Notes under the pieces: generated by a model
Database searches by the model: none
Seen by the model: the letters and a program-made list of their open reading frames with translations, nothing else
Told to the model about the DNA's origin: nothing
Made by a program: the position numbers and the translations under genes
In this document: one piece after another, positions 15,860 to 23,116 of the stretch
Position numbering within the stretch: position 1 is the stretch's first letter
How the letters are laid out: the number at the start of each line of letters is the position of its first letter
Source of the DNA: Flavobacteriales bacterium
Lineage (GTDB): Bacteria; Bacteroidota; Bacteroidia; Flavobacteriales_D; Crocinitomicaceae
Reading direction: 5' to 3'
Assembly (NCBI GenBank): GCA_947476955.1
Contig: CANJSS010000009.1
Location: forward strand, 1 to 39,904
Length of the DNA stretch: 39,904 nucleotides

Positions 15860-17764
15860 TTAATCCTCACTTAAAACGATTATATAATCATCGTCATTAA
15901 ATTCAATTAGCTCTTCTTTGTTCGGATTTAGTTTAACACCAAAATTATAACTTACATCGTTATGGTATTTATTTAATCTATATCCGAATGCAGTATCTCC
16001 CATCTCAGAGGCATTTGCTAAAATTGTATAGAAGTTAACGGATTCCCCGCATTTAACATATCTGGATGCAGGTTTTAAATAAATTTCTGAACCTTCGGAT
16101 TTTAATAACTCATCAAACACTTTTTTAAGGTTGCTGTTTTCGCTTAATTGACTTAGCATTAAACTAATTAAATTTTCACCAATGATAAAGTCATCCGCTT
16201 TAGCAACTATTCCGAGAGCTCTATTTTTAAGATCTAACATTTCGGTTACAATATTGAAATCTTTTCCTTTAGCATCACTGATATTTCTAAGATGAAGCAA
16301 ACAAATTAAAGTTTTAGCGTCACTTTCCTGAATTTCTAAATTCTTATAGCTTAGCACGATTATGTTATCGAAATCTTCTGGTTTAATTTTAATTAAAGTA
16401 TTCTTATCATTAACTTCTCCTTCTTGAAAAGTAATCGTTAAATTTTTGACAGTTGTTTTTATTTCTTCAATTTGACTAATTTCATAAGGCTCTAATTCTG
16501 CCACTATTAAAATATGAGAACCACCCGAAATATAGTTATCGAGTTCTTTGACGATGTTCAATCCATTTTTATTCCAGCCCAATATCAATGTTTTTGTTGG
16601 AACTTGAATATATTCTAATTTCGAACCTTGGTGCTCTGGCGCTTGATTAATATTTGGTAACGAATTCATAATTACCGTATCGTCATCTTGAGAAATTGCA
16701 ATAATTTCATCTCCATTCTCAAGAATATAGTTCATTTCAGGGTTAATAAATACATTTTCATCTTTTGAAAAAATACCTATTACAGCTGAATCTTTGTAAG
16801 CAAAAAGAGCATCTTTGTATGTTTTACCATAAAGTGAATTCTCTTTCTTAAAATAAATTTCGTCTCCATCGAAGCATAATAATTCACTGTAAACAATACT
16901 TAAACCAGATTGAAGCGAGGTTTGGGCAGCTACGCGCGATATTATATCGGAGGATAAAACATAAATAGCTTCGTTATTTCCAACAAGTTCTGCAGCTTCA
17001 AGATTCTTTTCTTCCTTAATCTCAGCAACTATATTGTATGGAGTAGTAACTCTTTTAGGAGATTTTGTTATCCCTAAAACTGTTTTTATAACATGCATAT
17101 CTGAATTGTCAGTATCTGGAGATAAAACAATAATAGATCTGGCGCCATTTGGATTAACAATTTCTACATCATTAAGATCTAATGGGTTACCATTTCGTAT
17201 CACGATTTTGGTGTTTTTTAAATCTTCAATCTTTGCATAAATTTCATCTTCCGCTTCTACTTTATCTTTCTCAGATAAAATTACTATGCATGGTTTTTTT
17301 TGATTTTCGTTCGCTATTGCAATTTCGGATATAATGGAAAATATTTTCTCTGACCATCCTAGAATTAAGGTGTGGTTGCTTTCAATCACTTTGGAACGAC
17401 CTCTTTTTAAGTCATCTATTTTTTGATCTATTCCCGATGAGATACTTCCAATTAAAATGGAAATTAAAAATATTCCTAAAATTGTTGCTGCAAATCGAAC
17501 ACTTCTAAATAGCCAACCCTCATCTCCACCCATCGTTCCTGAATCCAATGTAGCCATTAGACTTTGCCATGATCCTTCGATAAATCCAAGTCCTTCTTTC
17601 CCTGCAGGATCGCTTGAAATACCAAAAATAAGTATTGCCAAACCAAGCATTAGAACGGCAAATAAAGAAATGATGGCAAGCCATTTTACGACACTTGTTG
17701 GTCCTTTCGATAAAGTTTGCTCAAAATTATATAGTAGCTTTTCTTTTTTTGAAAATTGATTCAT
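15860..17764 (-). CDS. CASTOR/POLLUX-related putative ion channel with two nucleotide-binding RCK-like domains
   Basis: A 634-residue membrane protein. TM1 spans 25-48, a re-entrant pore-like segment about 64-82 (SWQSLMATLDSGTMGGDEG), and TM2 88-112. Then come two RCK/TrkA-N-like Rossmann domains, each opening with the same sequence, HTLILGWSEK at 131 and KTLILGWNKNG at about 391, and each followed by a short TrkA-C-like part. This is the architecture of the CASTOR/POLLUX/DMI1 family, cation channels gated by cytosolic ligands such as calcium in plants. No canonical GYG potassium filter is present. It is the last gene of the cluster, 78 bases after a four-helix membrane protein. Ion selectivity and ligand are unknown; in this context it may be the effector of the SPFH/TerB/GYF assembly (inference). 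Confidence 0.85.
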   Translation of the reverse strand: MNQFSKKEKLLYNFEQTLSKGPTSVVKWLAIISLFAVLMLGLAILIFGISSDPAGKEGLGFIEGSWQSLMATLDSGTMGGDEGWLFRSVRFAATILGIFLISILIGSISSGIDQKIDDLKRGRSKVIESNHTLILGWSEKIFSIISEIAIANENQKKPCIVILSEKDKVEAEDEIYAKIEDLKNTKIVIRNGNPLDLNDVEIVNPNGARSIIVLSPDTDNSDMHVIKTVLGITKSPKRVTTPYNIVAEIKEEKNLEAAELVGNNEAIYVLSSDIISRVAAQTSLQSGLSIVYSELLCFDGDEIYFKKENSLYGKTYKDALFAYKDSAVIGIFSKDENVFINPEMNYILENGDEIIAISQDDDTVIMNSLPNINQAPEHQGSKLEYIQVPTKTLILGWNKNGLNIVKELDNYISGGSHILIVAELEPYEISQIEEIKTTVKNLTITFQEGEVNDKNTLIKIKPEDFDNIIVLSYKNLEIQESDAKTLICLLHLRNISDAKGKDFNIVTEMLDLKNRALGIVAKADDFIIGENLISLMLSQLSENSNLKKVFDELLKSEGSEIYLKPASRYVKCGESVNFYTILANASEMGDTAFGYRLNKYHNDVSYNFGVKLNPNKEELIEFNDDDYIIVLSED

Positions 17765-17842
17765 AATATTTTAACGTAATTTAAATTTAAAAAGTGGGTG
17801 CATACTTGTTTTAGAAAGTATATTAAAAGACTTCAATACTGT

Positions 17843-18187
17843 TTACTGTTGAGCTCTATAAATGGAATATGTTGTGAGCATAAAAATTAAAAATAGAATA
17901 CCATTAATAAGCACATAAGCAGGCACTGAAAAAGCCATTAATGTAAAGCAAGAATTGCTTATTAAAGCAATGACAAAGAATAATATTGCTACGGTTTTAA
18001 TATTTGTACTGGTTCTACTCAATTCAAAACTACATCCAAACGAAATAGTTGAAGTAATTCCCAAAAACATAAAACTTCCTAAGCTAAGCAGGGTTTTATT
18101 GTCTGACACACTAAAGCTATAAAAACCATATGCAAAAAGTGCACTAATTAAAATTGCAATTATTGATTGTACAAAATTTACTTTCAT
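17843..18187 (-). CDS. four-helix integral membrane protein, unknown function
   Basis: 114 residues, almost all membrane: helices at about 7-24, 33-52, 65-84 and 88-108, with a short basic tail ending YRAQQ. Cys51, Cys80 and polar residues lie within the helices. No family recognised. Its start lies 3 bases after the stop of the GYF_2 gene, so the two are certainly co-transcribed and perhaps translationally coupled. It lies directly before the ion-channel gene, so an accessory subunit or membrane scaffold is possible (inference). Confidence 0.75.
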   Translation of the reverse strand: MKVNFVQSIIAILISALFAYGFYSFSVSDNKTLLSLGSFMFLGITSTISFGCSFELSRTSTNIKTVAILFFVIALISNSCFTLMAFSVPAYVLINGILFLIFMLTTYSIYRAQQ

Positions 18188-18190
18188 ATT

Positions 18191-18544
18191 TTATAAATTT
18201 TTAGGTAAAGGTGGTGGGGTAAGTGCCACTATTTTCAATATTTCAGGCAATCTTTCGGCAATTTCCCAATTAAACATTCCTGGTTTCCATATATATGTGC
18301 TTTTATCAATTTTTTGATCTGTAATCAATCGTGCTAGATCTTGTTCAGTAAATGGGCCGGCTTGCAGCCCATTTATTATGACATAATAAAATTGTGGCGA
18401 AGGCGATTGAACTTGGTTCATTGCGCCTGGTATATGCATTGTTGTCATGCTCTCATTCATGGTTTTTACCATTTGTTGAGCAATTGCTACACCCATCCCG
18501 AATTCTACTAACCTATTAATAGAAAAAAAACTTTCGTCATCCAT
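18191..18544 (-). CDS. GYF_2 (DUF4339) domain protein with Pro-rich tail
   Basis: 117 residues. Residues 10-35 form a Gly/Met/Gln amphipathic helix (FGMGVAIAQQMVKTM), resembling the linker before the C-terminal module of YdjI-like SPFH proteins. Residues 52-105 are a GYF_2 domain: YYVIINGLQAGPFTEQDLARL and YIWKPGMFNWEIAERLPE (core W-x-x-G-M-x-x-W). The end is TPPPLPKNL. It therefore looks like the detached tail of an SPFH-GYF protein, such as the one encoded upstream at 18950-20287. GYF-type domains bind proline-rich peptides in eukaryotes, so binding to the polyproline tail of the SPFH protein is plausible but untested. Gaps of 12 and 3 bases to its neighbours place it firmly in the operon. 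Confidence 0.85.
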   Translation of the reverse strand: MDDESFFSINRLVEFGMGVAIAQQMVKTMNESMTTMHIPGAMNQVQSPSPQFYYVIINGLQAGPFTEQDLARLITDQKIDKSTYIWKPGMFNWEIAERLPEILKIVALTPPPLPKNL

Positions 18545-18556
18545 TTTCTTGATTGA

Positions 18557-18862
18557 TTATCCCATCATACAATAAATCCACCATGCAGCATCTCCAAGTG
18601 CCATATAAGCCCAGAATTTAGTTGTACTTGTTTTCAAAGCAGAAACTGTAAAAATGCTGATTGCATACGCAATATGCAAAACAATAAGCGTTACAAATAG
18701 CTTGTTATCAGCACTTTGAAATGCACTAAAATCTAATTGTAAGAGTGCTTTAACTCCTTCTTTAAAGAACAAAGCGATCGGCAAGAAATTGATAGCTAGA
18801 AGTAATAAGAACATTGTTAAATTGACAACAATTTTGTTCCCTGTTGATTTTTCTTTTGACAT
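18557..18862 (-). CDS. three-helix integral membrane protein, unknown function
   Basis: 101 residues: a charged N-terminus (MSKEKSTGNK), then hydrophobic helices at about 12-32, 55-73 and 84-100, ending WWIYCMMG. A conserved-looking leader block lies 18-67 bases upstream, marking this as the first gene of the second transcript of the cluster. I do not recognise a family. It is followed after 12 bases by the GYF_2 gene. Confidence 0.75.
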   Translation of the reverse strand: MSKEKSTGNKIVVNLTMFLLLLAINFLPIALFFKEGVKALLQLDFSAFQSADNKLFVTLIVLHIAYAISIFTVSALKTSTTKFWAYMALGDAAWWIYCMMG

Positions 18863-18879
18863 TTTTTATGGTTTTTAAA

Positions 18880-18929
18880 TTTTCTTACTCATTAGCTTTT
18901 CAGAATCCGCTCAGTTTTTTATGGATACT
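18880..18929 (-). promoter_or_regulatory. leader element copy A (5' UTR of the 3TM-GYF-4TM-channel transcript)
   Basis: Read leftwards: a short hairpin (TCAGT...ACTGA with an A-rich loop), then AGCGGATTCTGAAAAGCTA, then ATGAGTAAGAAAA, ending 17 bases before the ATG at 18862. It aligns with copy B at 22664-22714 over about 33 bases with few differences and one indel. In both, exactly 19 bases separate the conserved GCGG from the preceding -7-like element (here the degenerate ATGGTTTC). The design suggests a structured regulatory RNA leader or operator; the Flavo-1 RNA motif is a candidate I cannot verify. Confidence 0.6.
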
Positions 18930-18949
18930 GAAACCATATTTTATATAAT

Positions 18950-20287
18950 TTAAGGCATTGGTGGAGGTGGAGGGGGTGGTGGAACAGCTCCAAAAATGGT
19001 TGCTAATTCTTGCACATTTCCAGCAAGTTCCCAATTTGGCATTCCTTGCTTCCAAACATTTGTATTCGTTAACAACTGGCCATTTTGAGCCATTTGTTGC
19101 AGTTGTTGCATATTATATGGACCGGACGTTTGGCCGTTAATCGAAACGCTGTAAGCAATTTGTGGAACTGGTGGAGGAGTATTCTGTTGTTGGTTCATAT
19201 TTTGACCCATGTTATTCATCATGCCAGCCATCTGATTTCCCATTGCTCCGCCCATCATCATTCCGGTCATCATTCCGGCAGGGTTCATTCCGCCGTCGCC
19301 TCCCATACCGCCCATATTACCAAGGCTTTCAGCCCCAGTTTTTAGCACATCTGTTTGTTGGTTTAAGGCATGAGCTCCCATGAAATTTGTTTCTGTTTGA
19401 AGTTTTTGTGCACGCTGCGCTTCTTCTCTTTGAATGCGCATTGTCTCATCTAAATTTGACGCATTGATGGCTTGCATGTCTTGAAGATTTTTAATGCCAA
19501 CGTCTGTTTGTGCAACAGTTGTTTTTGTGGTTTGGTCGGCAGTAACTTTTCTCAATTCAGCATACCCATCACTTTCTTTATCAACATCAATAGATGCAAG
19601 GTCGAACCCCTTTAAGTTAACACCGAAGTCTGTTTCGAGTCTAGCTTTCAATCTTGCTGAAATTAATTCATTAATTTCAAGAATTTTTCTTTCCATCTGC
19701 AAAACCGGAATACCATTATCTGCAGGAACATTTGTTATAATACCCTTAACATATTTTGTAACAGCATCTTTAATTTGTTTATTGAAATCTTCTAATTCAA
19801 AGTTAACCAATCGGTTAAGCTTTATAAATCCTTGATAATCAGTTACATTAAATGTTATTGTTCCTCTTGCAGCCATTGGAACCGCAAAATCTACAAATCT
19901 AGGATCAAAAACATCAAAATATGGAATTCCAAATTTAACTTGAATATTTCCGGATAAATTGATGAAATAAATCTCTGCTTGGAATGGAGACGCGCCACCA
20001 AATGCTAATCCAACAATACCAGTTAATACAGGGAAGTTGGCTGTTTTAATAGTTTGGTCATATGGTCCAACAATATAATCCTGCATGGACCCGTCTTTTT
20101 GTTGGTAAACAAAAACAGCCATTTCGCCATCTTTAACGCGAAGGCTGCTTCCAAAACGGATTGAGTTTTCTTTCTTTGTAGAGTTTGCTTCCCCACTAGG
20201 GCGCCATTTCCAAACAAGATATTCTTGCTCATCACAGCGGATTACATCCATTAATCCACCTTCTTCTTTCTTACTAAAAAATCCCAT
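18950..20287 (-). CDS. SPFH-domain (YdjI-like, 'virion core' family) protein with C-terminal GYF_2 domain and polyproline tail
   Basis: 445 residues. Residues 1-230 form a YdjI-type SPFH domain (start MGFFSKKEEGGLMDVIRCD; GAxPFQAEIYFINL; FVDFAVPMAARG). Residues 230-310 form a charged coiled coil (TQTDVGIKNLQD... REEAQRAQKLQ). Residues 322-370 are Gly/Met/Asn-rich, and 378-425 are a GYF_2 domain (YSVSINGQTSGPYNMQQLQ, VWKQGMPNWELAG). The last ten residues are eight Pro, Met, Pro. SPFH proteins oligomerise at membranes; B. subtilis YdjI is encoded with a PspA homologue in an envelope-stress operon and ends in a zinc ribbon instead. No PspA lies here. Its job is probably to build a membrane-associated scaffold to which GYF and zinc-ribbon partners attach (inference). 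The gap to the TerB gene upstream is 19 bases. Confidence 0.85.
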   Translation of the reverse strand: MGFFSKKEEGGLMDVIRCDEQEYLVWKWRPSGEANSTKKENSIRFGSSLRVKDGEMAVFVYQQKDGSMQDYIVGPYDQTIKTANFPVLTGIVGLAFGGASPFQAEIYFINLSGNIQVKFGIPYFDVFDPRFVDFAVPMAARGTITFNVTDYQGFIKLNRLVNFELEDFNKQIKDAVTKYVKGIITNVPADNGIPVLQMERKILEINELISARLKARLETDFGVNLKGFDLASIDVDKESDGYAELRKVTADQTTKTTVAQTDVGIKNLQDMQAINASNLDETMRIQREEAQRAQKLQTETNFMGAHALNQQTDVLKTGAESLGNMGGMGGDGGMNPAGMMTGMMMGGAMGNQMAGMMNNMGQNMNQQQNTPPPVPQIAYSVSINGQTSGPYNMQQLQQMAQNGQLLTNTNVWKQGMPNWELAGNVQELATIFGAVPPPPPPPPMP

Positions 20288-20306
20288 ATTTTAATCTGTA
20301 TTTCGC

Positions 20307-21017
20307 TTATTTAATGCCTATTTCTTTGGCATAACTATTAATTTCTTCAAGAGTTTTTTTGTCTTCTTTCATTGAAAATCTTGCTTTCATGACGATTTGT
20401 TCACACTTAGAAAACCAAGTTGAAGCTAAATCATTATGCGATTTGTTTTCAGGACTAGCTTTCGTCAAGAAATTTCCCTTTTGACGAGCATTTGGAATAG
20501 CAGTAGATAAAAATTCAAGGATATCGTCTTTGGTATTTGGAATTGGAAACCCAGAAATAATAGATTTTTTCTTTTCAGTGACTTTATCCCCTTGCCCCAT
20601 TCCTTGAGCCATGAGTGCGCCAAAAGCACCAGTAATTGAAGTGCTTTGTGCCACTCTTTCATTTTCACATGCATTCAACATTAAAAATAGTTTTTGAATG
20701 GAAACATTCGCATCAATATTACTGAATTCATGTCCGCAATCAGAACATTTTGTTTGAAAAGATTGAGCTATAGCTGCACATGCCGGGCATTTTTTTACAT
20801 CTCCAAATTTATCTGATTTTGGAGCAGCCGAAGCAGGAGTTTCTGACTTAACGCTTTGTTTTTTTTCATAAAGCTTTGCATCAAGAACCATTTCGAATTC
20901 GTCAAGATCAATTCCCGCTGCTTCCGCTTTTTTAAAAAGAATTTGCTTTTCCTTTTCTGTTAGTTCCCCATCAGAAAGGGCCATATTAATTAGATTCTCA
21001 AGTTGTTCGTTATACAT
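20307..21017 (-). CDS. TerB-like / zinc-ribbon protein, soluble paralogue
   Basis: 236 residues. Residues 1-50 are a short TerB-like helical module (ALSDGELTEKEKQILFKKA with acidic D-G-E), followed by a Ser/Pro linker and a zinc ribbon with Cys77, Cys80, Cys91 and Cys94. A GMGQGD linker leads to a C-terminal helical domain (GFPIPNTKDDILEFL to the end) shared with the next paralogue. It has no membrane segment. The first 50 residues are nearly identical to those of the neighbour at 21032-21817, pointing to a tandem duplication. Starts at ATG. Neighbours at 14 and 19 bases place it in the operon with the SPFH gene. Function unknown; zinc ribbon plus TerB suggests an adaptor or sensor. Confidence 0.78.
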   Translation of the reverse strand: MYNEQLENLINMALSDGELTEKEKQILFKKAEAAGIDLDEFEMVLDAKLYEKKQSVKSETPASAAPKSDKFGDVKKCPACAAIAQSFQTKCSDCGHEFSNIDANVSIQKLFLMLNACENERVAQSTSITGAFGALMAQGMGQGDKVTEKKKSIISGFPIPNTKDDILEFLSTAIPNARQKGNFLTKASPENKSHNDLASTWFSKCEQIVMKARFSMKEDKKTLEEINSYAKEIGIK

Positions 21018-21031
21018 ATAAATAGATTATT

Positions 21032-21817
21032 TTATTTTTTCTTAATTATTCTAGCATCCATCAAGATACCTTCAATAGCCAAAATTGTTAATTTATCTTC
21101 TTGCATTGAAATCTTAGCTTTCGTATAAACTTGTTCTGCTTTCTTTTTCCAAATTGCATTCCACTTTGAAATGTATTTACCTTCATCATCGATTCTTTTT
21201 AATAAACCGATTGTTTTGATTTTGCTAATGGACAATGTAATAAACTCAATAATATCCTCTCTAGAATTTGGAACAGGAAAGTTCATTATCATTTCTTCTT
21301 TCCGGGAATCAGTGACAGACCATTTCCCTGGCTTAGTCTTATTCGCTATAAAAGTGATTAGTTTCAGTGGAAGAAGGACCCACCAAAATAACCACCACTT
21401 TATCAACGTACCAACTGTTGTTCCCGAATCAATATCTTTGCTTTCAAATAGTGTATCTTTTCTATTTGCTTCAAGTTCATCTAGTTTCTCAAAAAATTTA
21501 GTAATATTTTGAGAAGCTTCAATATTTCTGAATTCTGTGCCGCAATCTGCACATTTTGTTGCAAATGATTGAACAATTGCAGCGCAAGCTGGACATCTTT
21601 TAACGTCGCCCAATTTATCTGATTTTGGAGCAGATGATAACGATGGTTCTTCGCTTTTTTTGAAATCAAAAAGTTTAGAATCAAGAACCATTTCAAATTC
21701 GTCTAAATCAATTCCTGCGGCCTCCGCTTTTTTAAAAAGAATTTGTTTTTCTTTTTCGTTAAGCTCACCATCTCTTAGTGCAATGTTTATAAGATTTTCA
21801 ATTTGTTCGTTGTACAA
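21032..21817 (-). CDS. TerB-like / zinc-ribbon protein with membrane segment, paralogue
   Basis: 261 residues, starting at TTG: the codon aligns exactly with the ATG of its paralogue (MYNEQ), and no better upstream start is seen. It has a TerB-like module at 1-50, zinc ribbon cysteines 75, 78, 89 and 92, a Trp-rich membrane helix at about 137-158 (LIKWWLFWWVLLPLKLITF), and the shared C-terminal helical domain from about 175 (NFPVPNSREDIIEFI). Compared with the downstream copy it has gained, or kept, the membrane anchor. Thus one paralogue would be membrane-bound and one soluble, with the same N- and C-terminal binding surfaces. Confidence 0.78.
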   Translation of the reverse strand: MYNEQIENLINIALRDGELNEKEKQILFKKAEAAGIDLDEFEMVLDSKLFDFKKSEEPSLSSAPKSDKLGDVKRCPACAAIVQSFATKCADCGTEFRNIEASQNITKFFEKLDELEANRKDTLFESKDIDSGTTVGTLIKWWLFWWVLLPLKLITFIANKTKPGKWSVTDSRKEEMIMNFPVPNSREDIIEFITLSISKIKTIGLLKRIDDEGKYISKWNAIWKKKAEQVYTKAKISMQEDKLTILAIEGILMDARIIKKK

Positions 21818-21847
21818 AATATGAAGTATTAATTAGGATTTATAGTA

Positions 21848-22045
21848 TTATTTCTTTTTTTTGAACAATCGAAAAGGCAACGTAATAATAAATTTTATTG
21901 GTATCCAAAAAATACTGATATACCAAGGTAGAAAACTTGTTACAGTTTCATCCACTTTTTCATGGATAGCTTCTTTGGCAGCTTCTTTAATTTCTTCTTT
22001 GGCAATTCCTATGGCTTTGTCCTTAATTCCTTCTTCTTCAATCAT
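21848..22045 (-). CDS. small 65-residue membrane-associated protein
   Basis: Residues 1-38 form a highly charged amphipathic helix (repeats of KEEIKEAAKEAIHEKVDE), and residues 39-58 are a hydrophobic aromatic segment (FLPWYISIFWIPIKFIITL), closed by basic RLFKKKK. This is a helix-plus-tail-anchor design. Starts at ATG; it follows the 36-bp palindrome after the lipoprotein gene and precedes the TerB gene by 30 bases. No family recognised. The clear design and position support it as a real gene. Confidence 0.7.
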   Translation of the reverse strand: MIEEEGIKDKAIGIAKEEIKEAAKEAIHEKVDETVTSFLPWYISIFWIPIKFIITLPFRLFKKKK

Positions 22046-22082
22046 TTTTCTCTGAATTAACTTAATTACATTTTTATAAAAA

Positions 22083-22118
22083 GCACAAAATTAGATTTTA
22101 TAAAATCTAATTTTGTGC
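22083..22118 (-). terminator. 36-base perfect palindrome; candidate attenuating terminator after the lipoprotein gene
   Basis: GCACAAAATTAGATTTTA is followed directly by its exact reverse complement. Read leftwards the stem is followed by TTTTTATAAAAA. It lies 12 bases after the lipoprotein stop and 37 bases before the next gene start. As RNA it would form a long A-U-rich hairpin; it may partly terminate transcription so that the lipoprotein is made in excess of the downstream proteins. Confidence 0.6.
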
Positions 22119-22130
22119 AGGGTAATTGGA

Positions 22131-22643
22131 TTAGAACCCACCTAAACCTTCAAGGCCTTTCATTGCATCTTGAGCATCGTTTAATGCCTTTTCTGTCTCT
22201 GCATCCATAGGAATGCTTTTTAAAGCTTCTAATGATTTATCATATGCATTAAATGCAGATGTTAAATCAACCATTTTACCAGCTTCCAACTGTAAAGCCA
22301 GTTTAGAAAGATCTGTTAAAGCTTTTAATTCATCTGAGCCAAACTCACCTTCAGCATATGCTTTTAATTCGTCTAGTGAAGATTTCAATGCTGCTGCAGC
22401 TTCTTTATCGCCGTCTTTTACTAAATCAGAGTATTCCTCTAACAAAGATTTGTATTCATCCATTGCATCTTCCGCAGAAGTAAGAGAAGAAAAATCTGCT
22501 GCAGCATCTTCTTCCGTTGCTGTTTCTTCAGATAATTCAGGCATTTCCATTTCTTCATCCATATCACTTGAAGAAGAGCCGCAACTTGCTACGGCAAATA
22601 ACATCATCGAATAAACAGATAGTCTTAAAATTGTTTTTTTCAT
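22131..22643 (-). CDS. lipoprotein with acidic N-terminus, unknown function
   Basis: 170 residues. It has a lipoprotein signal peptide with lipobox FAVASC (Cys21 would carry the lipid), then Ser- and acid-rich linker residues 22-50 (GSSSSDMDEEMEMPELSEE), then helical, charged sequence to the end (ALKSSLDELKAYAEGEFG, KALNDAQDAMKGLEGLGGF). First gene of the cluster, directly after leader copy B. Acidic residues immediately after the lipidated Cys may influence localisation. No family recognised; a periplasmic sensor or tether for the membrane assembly is possible (inference). Confidence 0.75.
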   Translation of the reverse strand: MKKTILRLSVYSMMLFAVASCGSSSSDMDEEMEMPELSEETATEEDAAADFSSLTSAEDAMDEYKSLLEEYSDLVKDGDKEAAAALKSSLDELKAYAEGEFGSDELKALTDLSKLALQLEAGKMVDLTSAFNAYDKSLEALKSIPMDAETEKALNDAQDAMKGLEGLGGF

Positions 22644-22663
22644 AGTAGTATTAATTAATTTTT

Positions 22664-22714
22664 TTTCCTACTCTAATAGCTTTTCGGAACCCGCTTTTAT
22701 ATTCAGCTATTAAC
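22664..22714 (-). promoter_or_regulatory. leader element copy B (5' UTR of the lipoprotein-TerB-SPFH transcript)
   Basis: Read leftwards: AATAGCTG, an A-rich stretch, AGCGGGTTCCGAAAAGCTA, then TTAGAGTAGGAAAA, 21 bases before the lipoprotein ATG. Here AATAGCT can also pair with AGCTATT downstream, closing the conserved block in a loop; this pairing is not kept in copy A. GCGG begins exactly 19 bases after the -7 box, so the element would lie at the very 5' end of the mRNA. Confidence 0.6.
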
Positions 22715-22722
22715 AAAATTAA
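22715..22722 (-). promoter_or_regulatory. -7 element of the lipoprotein-operon promoter
   Basis: TAATTTTG on the minus strand matches TAnnTTTG exactly and sits immediately upstream of leader copy B. No TTTG at the -33 position, which may point to an activator or an alternative sigma factor. Confidence 0.5.
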
Positions 22723-22969
22723 TAGTGTAATAACGTATTGTTTTTTAAGTAAGAAAATGAGGAGTGGCCTAATGAAAAAGTTATTCAATTGTGAAATCAA
22801 ATAATATAATAGCGTAGCGAATATAATTTTTATTTTATAATTATCATTTGTTTTAAATATTTTTTTTAAAAATATGGAATGATATTCTTTAAAAATTGAT
22901 ATTTTTTTGAGCTATTGAAAAATTCTATTCTACATTGAATTCGCTCTCAAGTTGGGGTTACACATCGTT

Positions 22970-23004
22970 AAAAAAAAAGATTTTTAGCATTGTATCTTTT
23001 TTTT
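22970..23004 (-). terminator. possible terminator of the radical SAM gene
   Basis: An 11-bp A/T-rich stem (A-run then GAT; ATC then T-run) with a 12-base loop, followed leftwards by nine T. It lies about 110 bases beyond the stop of the radical SAM gene. The stem is weak in G-C. Confidence 0.45.
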
Positions 23005-23116
23005 CTTGAATAATCAATTAGTTGAATTAATAATTTTACGCTTAGAAATTAAATTTTCCGCGCTATATTGAATTTAGATAAAAAAGTAGGTGCTATTTTA
23101 ACAAATAAATTGCGAT

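Follow-up and report, generated by a model that had tools for sequence, protein, structure and literature searches.

The closest described relatives of the elements treated here are the DUF805 RNA (RF03081) and the DUF805b RNA (RF02914), two Rfam families that are both typed Cis-reg and joined in clan CL00115. The DUF805 motifs are said to stem from Weinberg et al. in 2017, and the novelty of the helices P3 and P4 presented below is set only against the consensus lines printed for the Rfam models. Literature searches by name found no paper explaining the DUF805 RNAs in the collection searched, and the accession RF02914 occurs in PMC7682815. Here we analyse two elements, site 1 and site 2, on the minus strand of a stretch of 39,904 nucleotides (nt) from a Flavobacteriales bacterium of the family Crocinitomicaceae (contig CANJSS010000009.1, positions 1 to 39,904). 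This whole stretch is referred to as the window, and a preliminary description of its DNA had singled out the two elements as copies of one structured leader. By their matches to the Rfam models, both belong to this known RNA class of unknown function. We consider it fairly probable (about 0.6) that the leader is a cis-acting control element of translation initiation with an H-type pseudoknot core. To the existing models the analysis adds a covariation-tested pseudoknot that unites DUF805 and DUF805b and a narrow spacing to the start codon; it also places the leader on phages and excludes three regulators.

Two further RNA systems and one feature of the phylum are relevant to this comparison. 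SAM-V-type riboswitches, as presented in the available part of PMC6061858, resemble the leader in their way of working, as they control translation by means of an H-type pseudoknot; in contrast, the 3′ strand of the present pseudoknot lies about 20 nt before the AUG, its targets are varied and no ligand is known. The Flavo-1 RNA (RF01705) is from the same phylum, Bacteroidetes, and the layout of the two sites had been likened to it. This likeness was not upheld, as neither site matched the Flavo-1 model (no match at the gathering score in the window and none at an expectation value (E) ≤5 in 18500-23100) and the DUF805 and DUF805b models matched instead. According to the accessible part of PMC9976891, the ribosomes of Bacteroidota do without Shine-Dalgarno pairing, and A at positions -3, -6, -12 and -13 is named there for initiation in Bacteroidia; this part contains no stem-loop leader.

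Two leaders of one RNA clan

With up to two mismatches, AGCGGRTTCYGAAAAGCTA matches the window twice, both times on the minus strand (18893-18911 and 22677-22695), compared to a mean of 0.00 in 100 shuffles, which agrees with the earlier argument that the two elements are not a product of chance. The block reads AGCGGATTCTGAAAAGCTA at site 1 (18911-18893) and AGCGGGTTCCGAAAAGCTA at site 2 (22695-22677). On its 3′ side it is followed, as previously described, by GAGTA[A/G]GAAAA after 2 bases (site 1) or 3 bases (site 2), with the start codon further on. The short spacing to the ATG was likewise recovered, the start codon lying 20 nt (site 1, start at 18862) and 22 nt (site 2, start at 22643) from the last paired base of this tail. 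Both sites are therefore found directly 5′ of a start codon and on the same strand as the gene, which is the placement of a cis-regulatory element.

Site 2 matches the full 35-nt model of the DUF805b RNA with 38.8 bits, above the cut-off of 35.6 (E 1.1e-7 for the window). Site 1 aligns with the DUF805 RNA over its full length (model positions 1-68), carrying the P1 hairpin, the P2 hairpin, an AAAAAC linker and the GAGUA tail in that order, and differs from it in having a U-rich stretch where the P1 loop of the model begins with AG. Its score of 41.7 bits (E 2.2e-6 in 401 nt; E 3.5e-6 in a covariance-model search of its own genome) compares with a cut-off of 51.1, and site 1 is a diverged relative within the clan and not a formal member of RF03081 at that cut-off. 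The consensus line printed by cmscan for RF03081 does not contain P3 and P4, and the one printed for RF02914 leaves the GAGUAGG tail unpaired, whereas our comparison makes this tail the 3′ strand of P3.

Three features of the preliminary description applied to one of the sites only. Site 2 alone heads a gene run, whereas P1 of site 1 begins 11 nt past the stop codon of an SPFH gene, within a co-directional gene series. A -7-like box 19 bases before GCGG can be recognized at site 2 as the TAnnTTTG-like TAATTTTG at 19 nt, whereas the corresponding letters at site 1 belong to the 5′ arm and loop of P1. Finally, the hairpin with an A-rich loop that was thought to precede both copies exists as a DUF805-kind hairpin upstream of the core at site 1, but its loop is not A-rich, and site 2 is a DUF805b element without P1.

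Conserved structure and proposed pseudoknot

Structural comparisons were based on three alignments, A2 (91 DUF805-type sites and site 1), A3 (61 DUF805b-type sites including site 2) and A5 (78 sites combining 4 A with a 5-nt loop and a 4-nt spacer, plus site 1, of whose P2 5′ strand the chosen coordinates trimmed two bases); the A2 rows L043, L244 and L045 look shifted by one base. From 328 parsed sites, nine with fewer than two of the three P2 pairs were dropped, and 11 of the remaining 319 have no open reading frame (ORF) by our rule. P1 was parsed in 237 sites, 126 of which lie outside the loci of an exact-pattern scan. The bacterial site finder requires C-Y-G and GAGTA-R and leaves only N43, N65 and the combination of Y and R free in the P3 test.

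In A2, double changes are present in all four P1 pairs and in two of the three P2 pairs, and 94.4% of the cells are paired in a structure that still included a later-rejected CGG/CYG helix, a value reached by none of 500 shuffles. In the DUF805b alignment A3, double changes were identified in three of the four tested P2 pairs, and the outermost P2 pair is formed in 32 of 60 rows. Furthermore, P2 pair types vary within 17 of the 22 genomes with at least three parsed sites, which favours base pairing and argues against a DNA-binding protein of a single preference.

In addition to these hairpins, the GAGUARG tail is predicted to fold back onto the P2 loop, where N-C-Y of the loop would pair with R-G-N′ of the tail to form P3 and hence an H-type pseudoknot. 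In A5, 98.2% of the P3 cells are paired (83.3% in shuffles, with 0 of 500 as high), and slid versions of the helix reach 25-64%. At the 193 sites outside the exact-pattern loci, Y45-R63 is C-G in 133, U-A in 30, U-G in 28 and C-A in two (Fisher p 8e-17), and N43-N65 is paired in 143 compared to 87 expected. Pairing of N43-N65 is found in 113 of the 118 sites with a 5-nt loop (U-A 69, G-C 21, C-G 12, U-G 4, G-U 4, A-U 3). Among viral sites, whose search pattern fixes neither N43 nor N65, the two bases are paired in 84 of 86 among the matches listed, the best of 20000 shuffles yielding 59; this count leaves out 14 sites with fewer than three P2 pairs and three of other loop length.

Both window sites carry the complete helix, with N43-N65, C44-G64 and Y45-R63 all paired (UCU/AGA at site 1, UCC/GGA at site 2). 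The [T/C] and [A/G] differences that had been listed between the two copies are present, and they are linked, T occurring with A at site 1 and C with G at site 2, so that they represent one compensated P3 pair, as the model predicts. In this comparison DUF805 and DUF805b share one core, the H-type pseudoknot P3. The earlier view that two separate genes each follow a copy of one structured leader is upheld. Covariation in homologues, the lack of which had been named beforehand as refuting the proposal, was found for P1, P2, P3 and P4, and for P3 also in the independent viral set.

The P1 loop of the DUF805 form putatively contacts the linker in a fourth helix, P4. Of the 79 sites that combine a complete P1 loop with a C at linker position 32, 64 pair loop 9 with linker 33 and 73 pair loop 8 with linker 34 (0 of 20000 shuffles each). 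Four offset controls did not clearly exceed chance, as 253 of 2000 shuffles reached even the highest of them, which joins loop 9 to linker 34. Among 29 P1 loops with a single C, 26 are accompanied by a linker with absent or altered G34 (ACG 21, CGA 5), many of them in exact-pattern loci and maybe close relatives. GAA and AGUA beside the P3 strands fit the stack pattern of the bulged-G (loop-E) motif and could stack in this way.

Other pairings were not retained. The first candidate for a pseudoknot, which joined a CGG located 5′ of P2 to a CYG of its loop, was paired in 86.8% of cells (86.0% in shuffles, 91 of 500 as high), and an inner GG/CC hairpin in DUF805b was paired in 76.7% of cells without a double change. 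A longer P2 as compensation for a missing P1 was not clear, with three P2 pairs in 38 of 67 P1-less and 51 of 80 P1-bearing sites. The commonest 4-nt loops are GAAA and GTAA. In four loci (L123, L176, L352, L353), a AAAAACGG-like block is separated, by eye, from the GGC strand of P2 by additional hairpin-like inserts.

Position relative to the start codon

The distance from N65 to the AUG has a median of 20 nt and a 5-95% range of 15-26 nt (186 sites), with a viral median of 21 nt (85 sites, among the matches listed). This narrow spacing leaves little space for a terminator, and we infer from it that the pseudoknot would border the initiating ribosome on its upstream side, ahead of an A-rich ribosome site. 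A occupies positions -3, -6, -12 and -13 in 65, 59, 80 and 75% of 153 leader genes; the corresponding values for the 379 other ORFs of these loci are 49, 45, 52 and 49%. In 165 of the 219 sites with enough sequence, the nearest upstream neighbour is a co-directional ORF, and 15 of these 165 leaders start ≤30 nt past its stop. No base-level signal was detected at a fixed distance upstream of P1 (137 sites), and TAnnTTTG showed weak clustering at most in this region, with 12 of 37 matches in bins -30 to -11.

Distribution and downstream genes

The genome from which the window derives (2.70 Mb, 179 contigs) contains two further convincing sites, as identified by a covariance-model search. One (71.3 bits) precedes a 238-amino-acid (aa) gene in a BLAST cluster whose representative matches Bac_rhodopsin, and the other (52.6 bits) precedes a 70-aa putative lipoprotein; six weak matches were inspected and either overlap a reading frame or lack one on the strand in question. 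RF03081 was identified in 42 of 100 genomes of the same family (E ≤1e-3; 29 over the cut-off) and in 48 of 296 genomes of the phylum (E ≤1e-5; 44 over the cut-off), and RF02914 in 69 of the 100 family genomes (E ≤1e-4; 49 over the cut-off). The exact core pattern occurs in at least 120 stretches, and among 80 titles, 78 are Bacteroidota by our reading, with one each from Ignavibacteriae and Cloacimonadota. Genomes of genus g12 contain 0 to 20 DUF805b matches each, with 20 in G071, 16 in G060 and 13 in G097. On one G097 contig (L186, G097:C111), the stretch from about 700 to 1930 carries six small genes, each preceded by its own DUF805b leader. Their products of ~42 aa have a double-glycine-like end (KLKGGG in one); five of the leaders are ~200 nt apart and the sixth follows 373 nt further on.

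The leader genes are varied, and many encode envelope or secreted proteins. BLAST grouped the 308 downstream genes, whose products have a median length of 141 aa, into 160 clusters. These were built by single linkage, so that a shared tail domain may join proteins; the counts are no census, as 126 of all 319 sites come from the loci of a single exact-pattern scan. Pfam searches with 30 representatives of the 38 clusters of at least two genes assigned the larger clusters to AHSA1 (19), DUF805 (15), Por_Secre_tail/S74 (14, heterogeneous), SCO4226-like (13) and TM2 (11). Mid-size clusters comprise putative lipoproteins without a family (10), aquaporin (9), rhodopsin (7) and TRL (6), and small ones outer-membrane barrels (5), DUF1842 (5), YccF (2) and PixA (2), among others. 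The 122 singletons match 39 Pfam families, 25 of which are among the matches listed. The rhodopsin-like genes of the cluster of seven are located directly behind DUF805 or DUF805b leaders (L001 1103-1171, L055, L180, L181, L188, L190 and L253).

Occurrence in viral sequences

At least 103 distinct viral sites were identified, 89 of 103 with all three P2 pairs among the matches listed, and all ten viral loci tested gave a clan match over the cut-off. Scanning of 41 of the 56 listed ORFs from five viral loci identified terminase, portal, major head and DnaB-like helicase families, among others, and at one locus (L380) the leader is found downstream of terminase, portal and ParB-like genes. The ParB-like phage protein has no homologue in an annotated phage collection, and a 51-aa phage protein has two homologues of <60% identity there, in stretches annotated almost only as hypothetical.

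The viral locus L440 contains 13 tRNA matches and, behind a DUF805b leader, a gene similar to the DUF805 protein cluster. In L362, L388, L394, L395 and L401, a common stretch like ggttaagagcctcaatt occupies the expected ORF place behind the leader. An 89-90 aa protein behind the leader is shared by bacterial and viral loci (L333, L225, L350, L383, L397 and L429) with 49-66% identity; the L333 protein has no Pfam match.

Possible function and alternatives

We propose that the folded pseudoknot at the upstream ribosome edge would set the translation level of the following gene, gene by gene and also within gene series. Its fold or occupancy might be set by a factor present across Bacteroidota, such as a small molecule, an ion, the ribosome itself or another protein, and the DUF805 form adds the upstream hairpin P1, whose loop would touch the linker through P4. 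Between the possible outcomes, we lean towards a gene-specific raising of translation over a constitutive shut-off. If the leader does act at initiation, it would represent a regulatory device in bacteria reported to initiate without Shine-Dalgarno pairing (in the accessible part of PMC9976891). It is found before rhodopsin, aquaporin, secretion-tail and envelope genes as well as on phages, and now that a pseudoknot has been tested by covariation and its compensatory pairs are named, the question of the DUF805 RNAs becomes directly testable. A wider proposal, which we put forward tentatively and consider somewhat more apt to fail than to hold, is that DUF805 and DUF805b form one unrecognised class of ligand- or ribosome-responsive pseudoknots that control Shine-Dalgarno-free initiation in Bacteroidota, are mobile between unrelated genes and have been borrowed by phages.

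Several observations weigh against control of initiation by such a pseudoknot. Site 1 scores under the Rfam cut-off of RF03081. The Y-R pairing is broken in two of 193 sites, and N43-N65 pairing drops to 22 of 61 sites where the loop has 4 nt and to 8 of 14 where it has 6 nt; in the exact-pattern loci, whose scan pattern sets N43 to A, it is seen in 6 of 126 sites. The count of pairs with double changes does not exceed that of shuffles (485 of 500 as high both in the P3 test on A5 and in a P2/P3 test, 466 of 500 for DUF805b in A3), which for P3 is due to the invariant middle C-G pair. Neither does the count of pair types (151 of 500 in the A3 test, 115 of 500 in one P2/P3 test), and the shuffles ignore relatedness among sequences. 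RNAalifold yields no pairs for A2, so that the fold would have to rely on tertiary contacts or on a partner. P4 shows A opposite A in 10 of 79 sites. It is not kept in the window, as C9 faces U33 at site 1, leaving a U8-G34 wobble as the sole pair, and site 2 lacks P1. Regarding placement, ORFs were called mechanically and wrong starts may add to the difference at -12 and -13, and position alone cannot separate translation control from mRNA stability.

Alternative explanations fit parts of these data. The leader might mark the genes of a regulon by binding a trans-acting factor, either an RNA-binding protein or a small RNA, a distinct though minor possibility suggested by the several dispersed genes per genome that carry it (up to 20 matches, G071) and by the two copies in one SPFH/channel cluster. 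Searches for three protein families speak against it: CsrA and Hfq were each found in none of 100 family genomes, and RRM proteins are encoded in 81 of 100, yet in none of eight sampled genomes of genus g12, including the leader-rich G071, G060 and G097 (the last 67% complete). Because of these absences, a general partner cannot be CsrA, Hfq or an RRM protein. A translational riboswitch, in which a small molecule or ion bound in the P2/P3 core would stabilise the pseudoknot, is credible but unlikely. It would suit the compact fold with its short helices and many near-invariant unpaired bases, and the available part of PMC6061858 documents translational H-type pseudoknot riboswitches (SAM-V); however, the downstream genes are unlike one pathway, with 160 clusters among 308 genes and many families of unknown function, and the element is also present on phage contigs.

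Control of translation initiation also has to be weighed against roles that involve no such control. A hairpin near a possible 5′ end would suit an mRNA stability element without regulation, which we regard as improbable given that DUF805b has no P1, that the spacing to the AUG is narrow and that the leader is not always at a 5′ end, as seen from the 15 of 165 co-directional sites mentioned above. Short inverted repeats and conserved blocks before genes might equally be expected of a DNA site for a transcription factor or an alternative sigma factor; compensatory changes in P1-P4, for P2 even within single genomes, and the lack of a fixed upstream promoter box make this very unlikely. Flavo-1, listed for Bacteroidetes in Table 1 of PMC2864571, has almost no probability left, as its covariance model matched neither the window at the gathering score nor 18500-23100 at E ≤5, and the same table, in the part available, gives it as not cis-regulatory.

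Window features and gene neighbourhood

Table 1. Coordinates of leader parts and neighbouring genes in the window
Feature	Position	Strand	Basis or remark
Site 1, DUF805-type leader	18878..18942	-	RF03081 match
Site 1, P1 5′ strand UAUGG, pairs with 18920-18924	18934..18938	-	AUGG/CCAU in RF03081 alignment; outermost pair is our extension
Site 1, P1 3′ strand CCAUA	18920..18924	-	RF03081 alignment; helix covaries in homologues
Site 1, P2 5′ strand AGC, pairs with 18894-18896	18909..18911	-	P2 covariation
Site 1, P2 3′ strand GCU	18894..18896	-	P2 covariation
Site 1, predicted P3 (pseudoknot) 5′ strand UCU, inside P2 loop	18902..18904	-	P3 comparison
Site 1, predicted P3 3′ strand AGA, end of GAGUAAG tail and next base	18883..18885	-	P3 comparison
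Site 2, DUF805b leader	22665..22697	-	RF02914 match
Site 2, P2 5′ strand AGC, pairs with 22678-22680	22693..22695	-	RF02914 match and comparison
Site 2, P2 3′ strand GCU	22678..22680	-	RF02914 match and comparison
Site 2, predicted P3 5′ strand UCC	22686..22688	-	P3 comparison (row L005 of A5)
Site 2, predicted P3 3′ strand GGA	22666..22668	-	P3 comparison
101-aa hydrophobic protein after site 1	18557..18862	-	no Pfam family
170-aa putative lipoprotein (by eye) after site 2	22131..22643	-	no Pfam family
Terminator-like 16-bp hairpin, 4-nt loop, T-rich tail, just 3′ of the 170-aa gene	22083..22118	-	pattern scan: 5 such sites, shuffles mean 3.5
SPFH/Band_7 and GYF_2 protein directly upstream of site 1	18950..20287	-	Pfam

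The 170-aa putative lipoprotein has matches in two others of 26 genomes searched in the genus, with 61 and 64% identity. An orthologous SPFH gene was identified in 4 of 59 other family genomes (E ≤1e-40). A leader follows its stop codon in two of them (G058 and G024) and is absent in the other two (G015 and G017), where a GYF-type gene follows directly. The loci with a leader in this place after an orthologous SPFH gene are L480, L483 and L062, the last a contig that entered the sample through its leader. The gene behind the leader varies, as those of G058 and G024 cluster together and not with the 101-aa protein of the window, and L062 contains a 314-aa frame. Judging from five relatives, the leader and the gene behind it seem to come and go as a unit.

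The window cluster further comprises a GYF_2 protein, a protein that carries a Castor/Pollux channel domain and two proteins whose zinc-ribbon matches stay below the threshold. The region 15860-22643 groups SPFH, zinc-ribbon-like, GYF and Castor/Pollux channel genes, presumably in a manner resembling the ydjGHI/PspA-type membrane stress modules of Bacillus. The tandem proteins encoded at 20307-21017 and 21032-21817 have their first ~50 residues in common (MYNEQ.ENLIN.AL.DGEL.EKEKQILFKKAEAAG), followed by a zinc-ribbon-like stretch.

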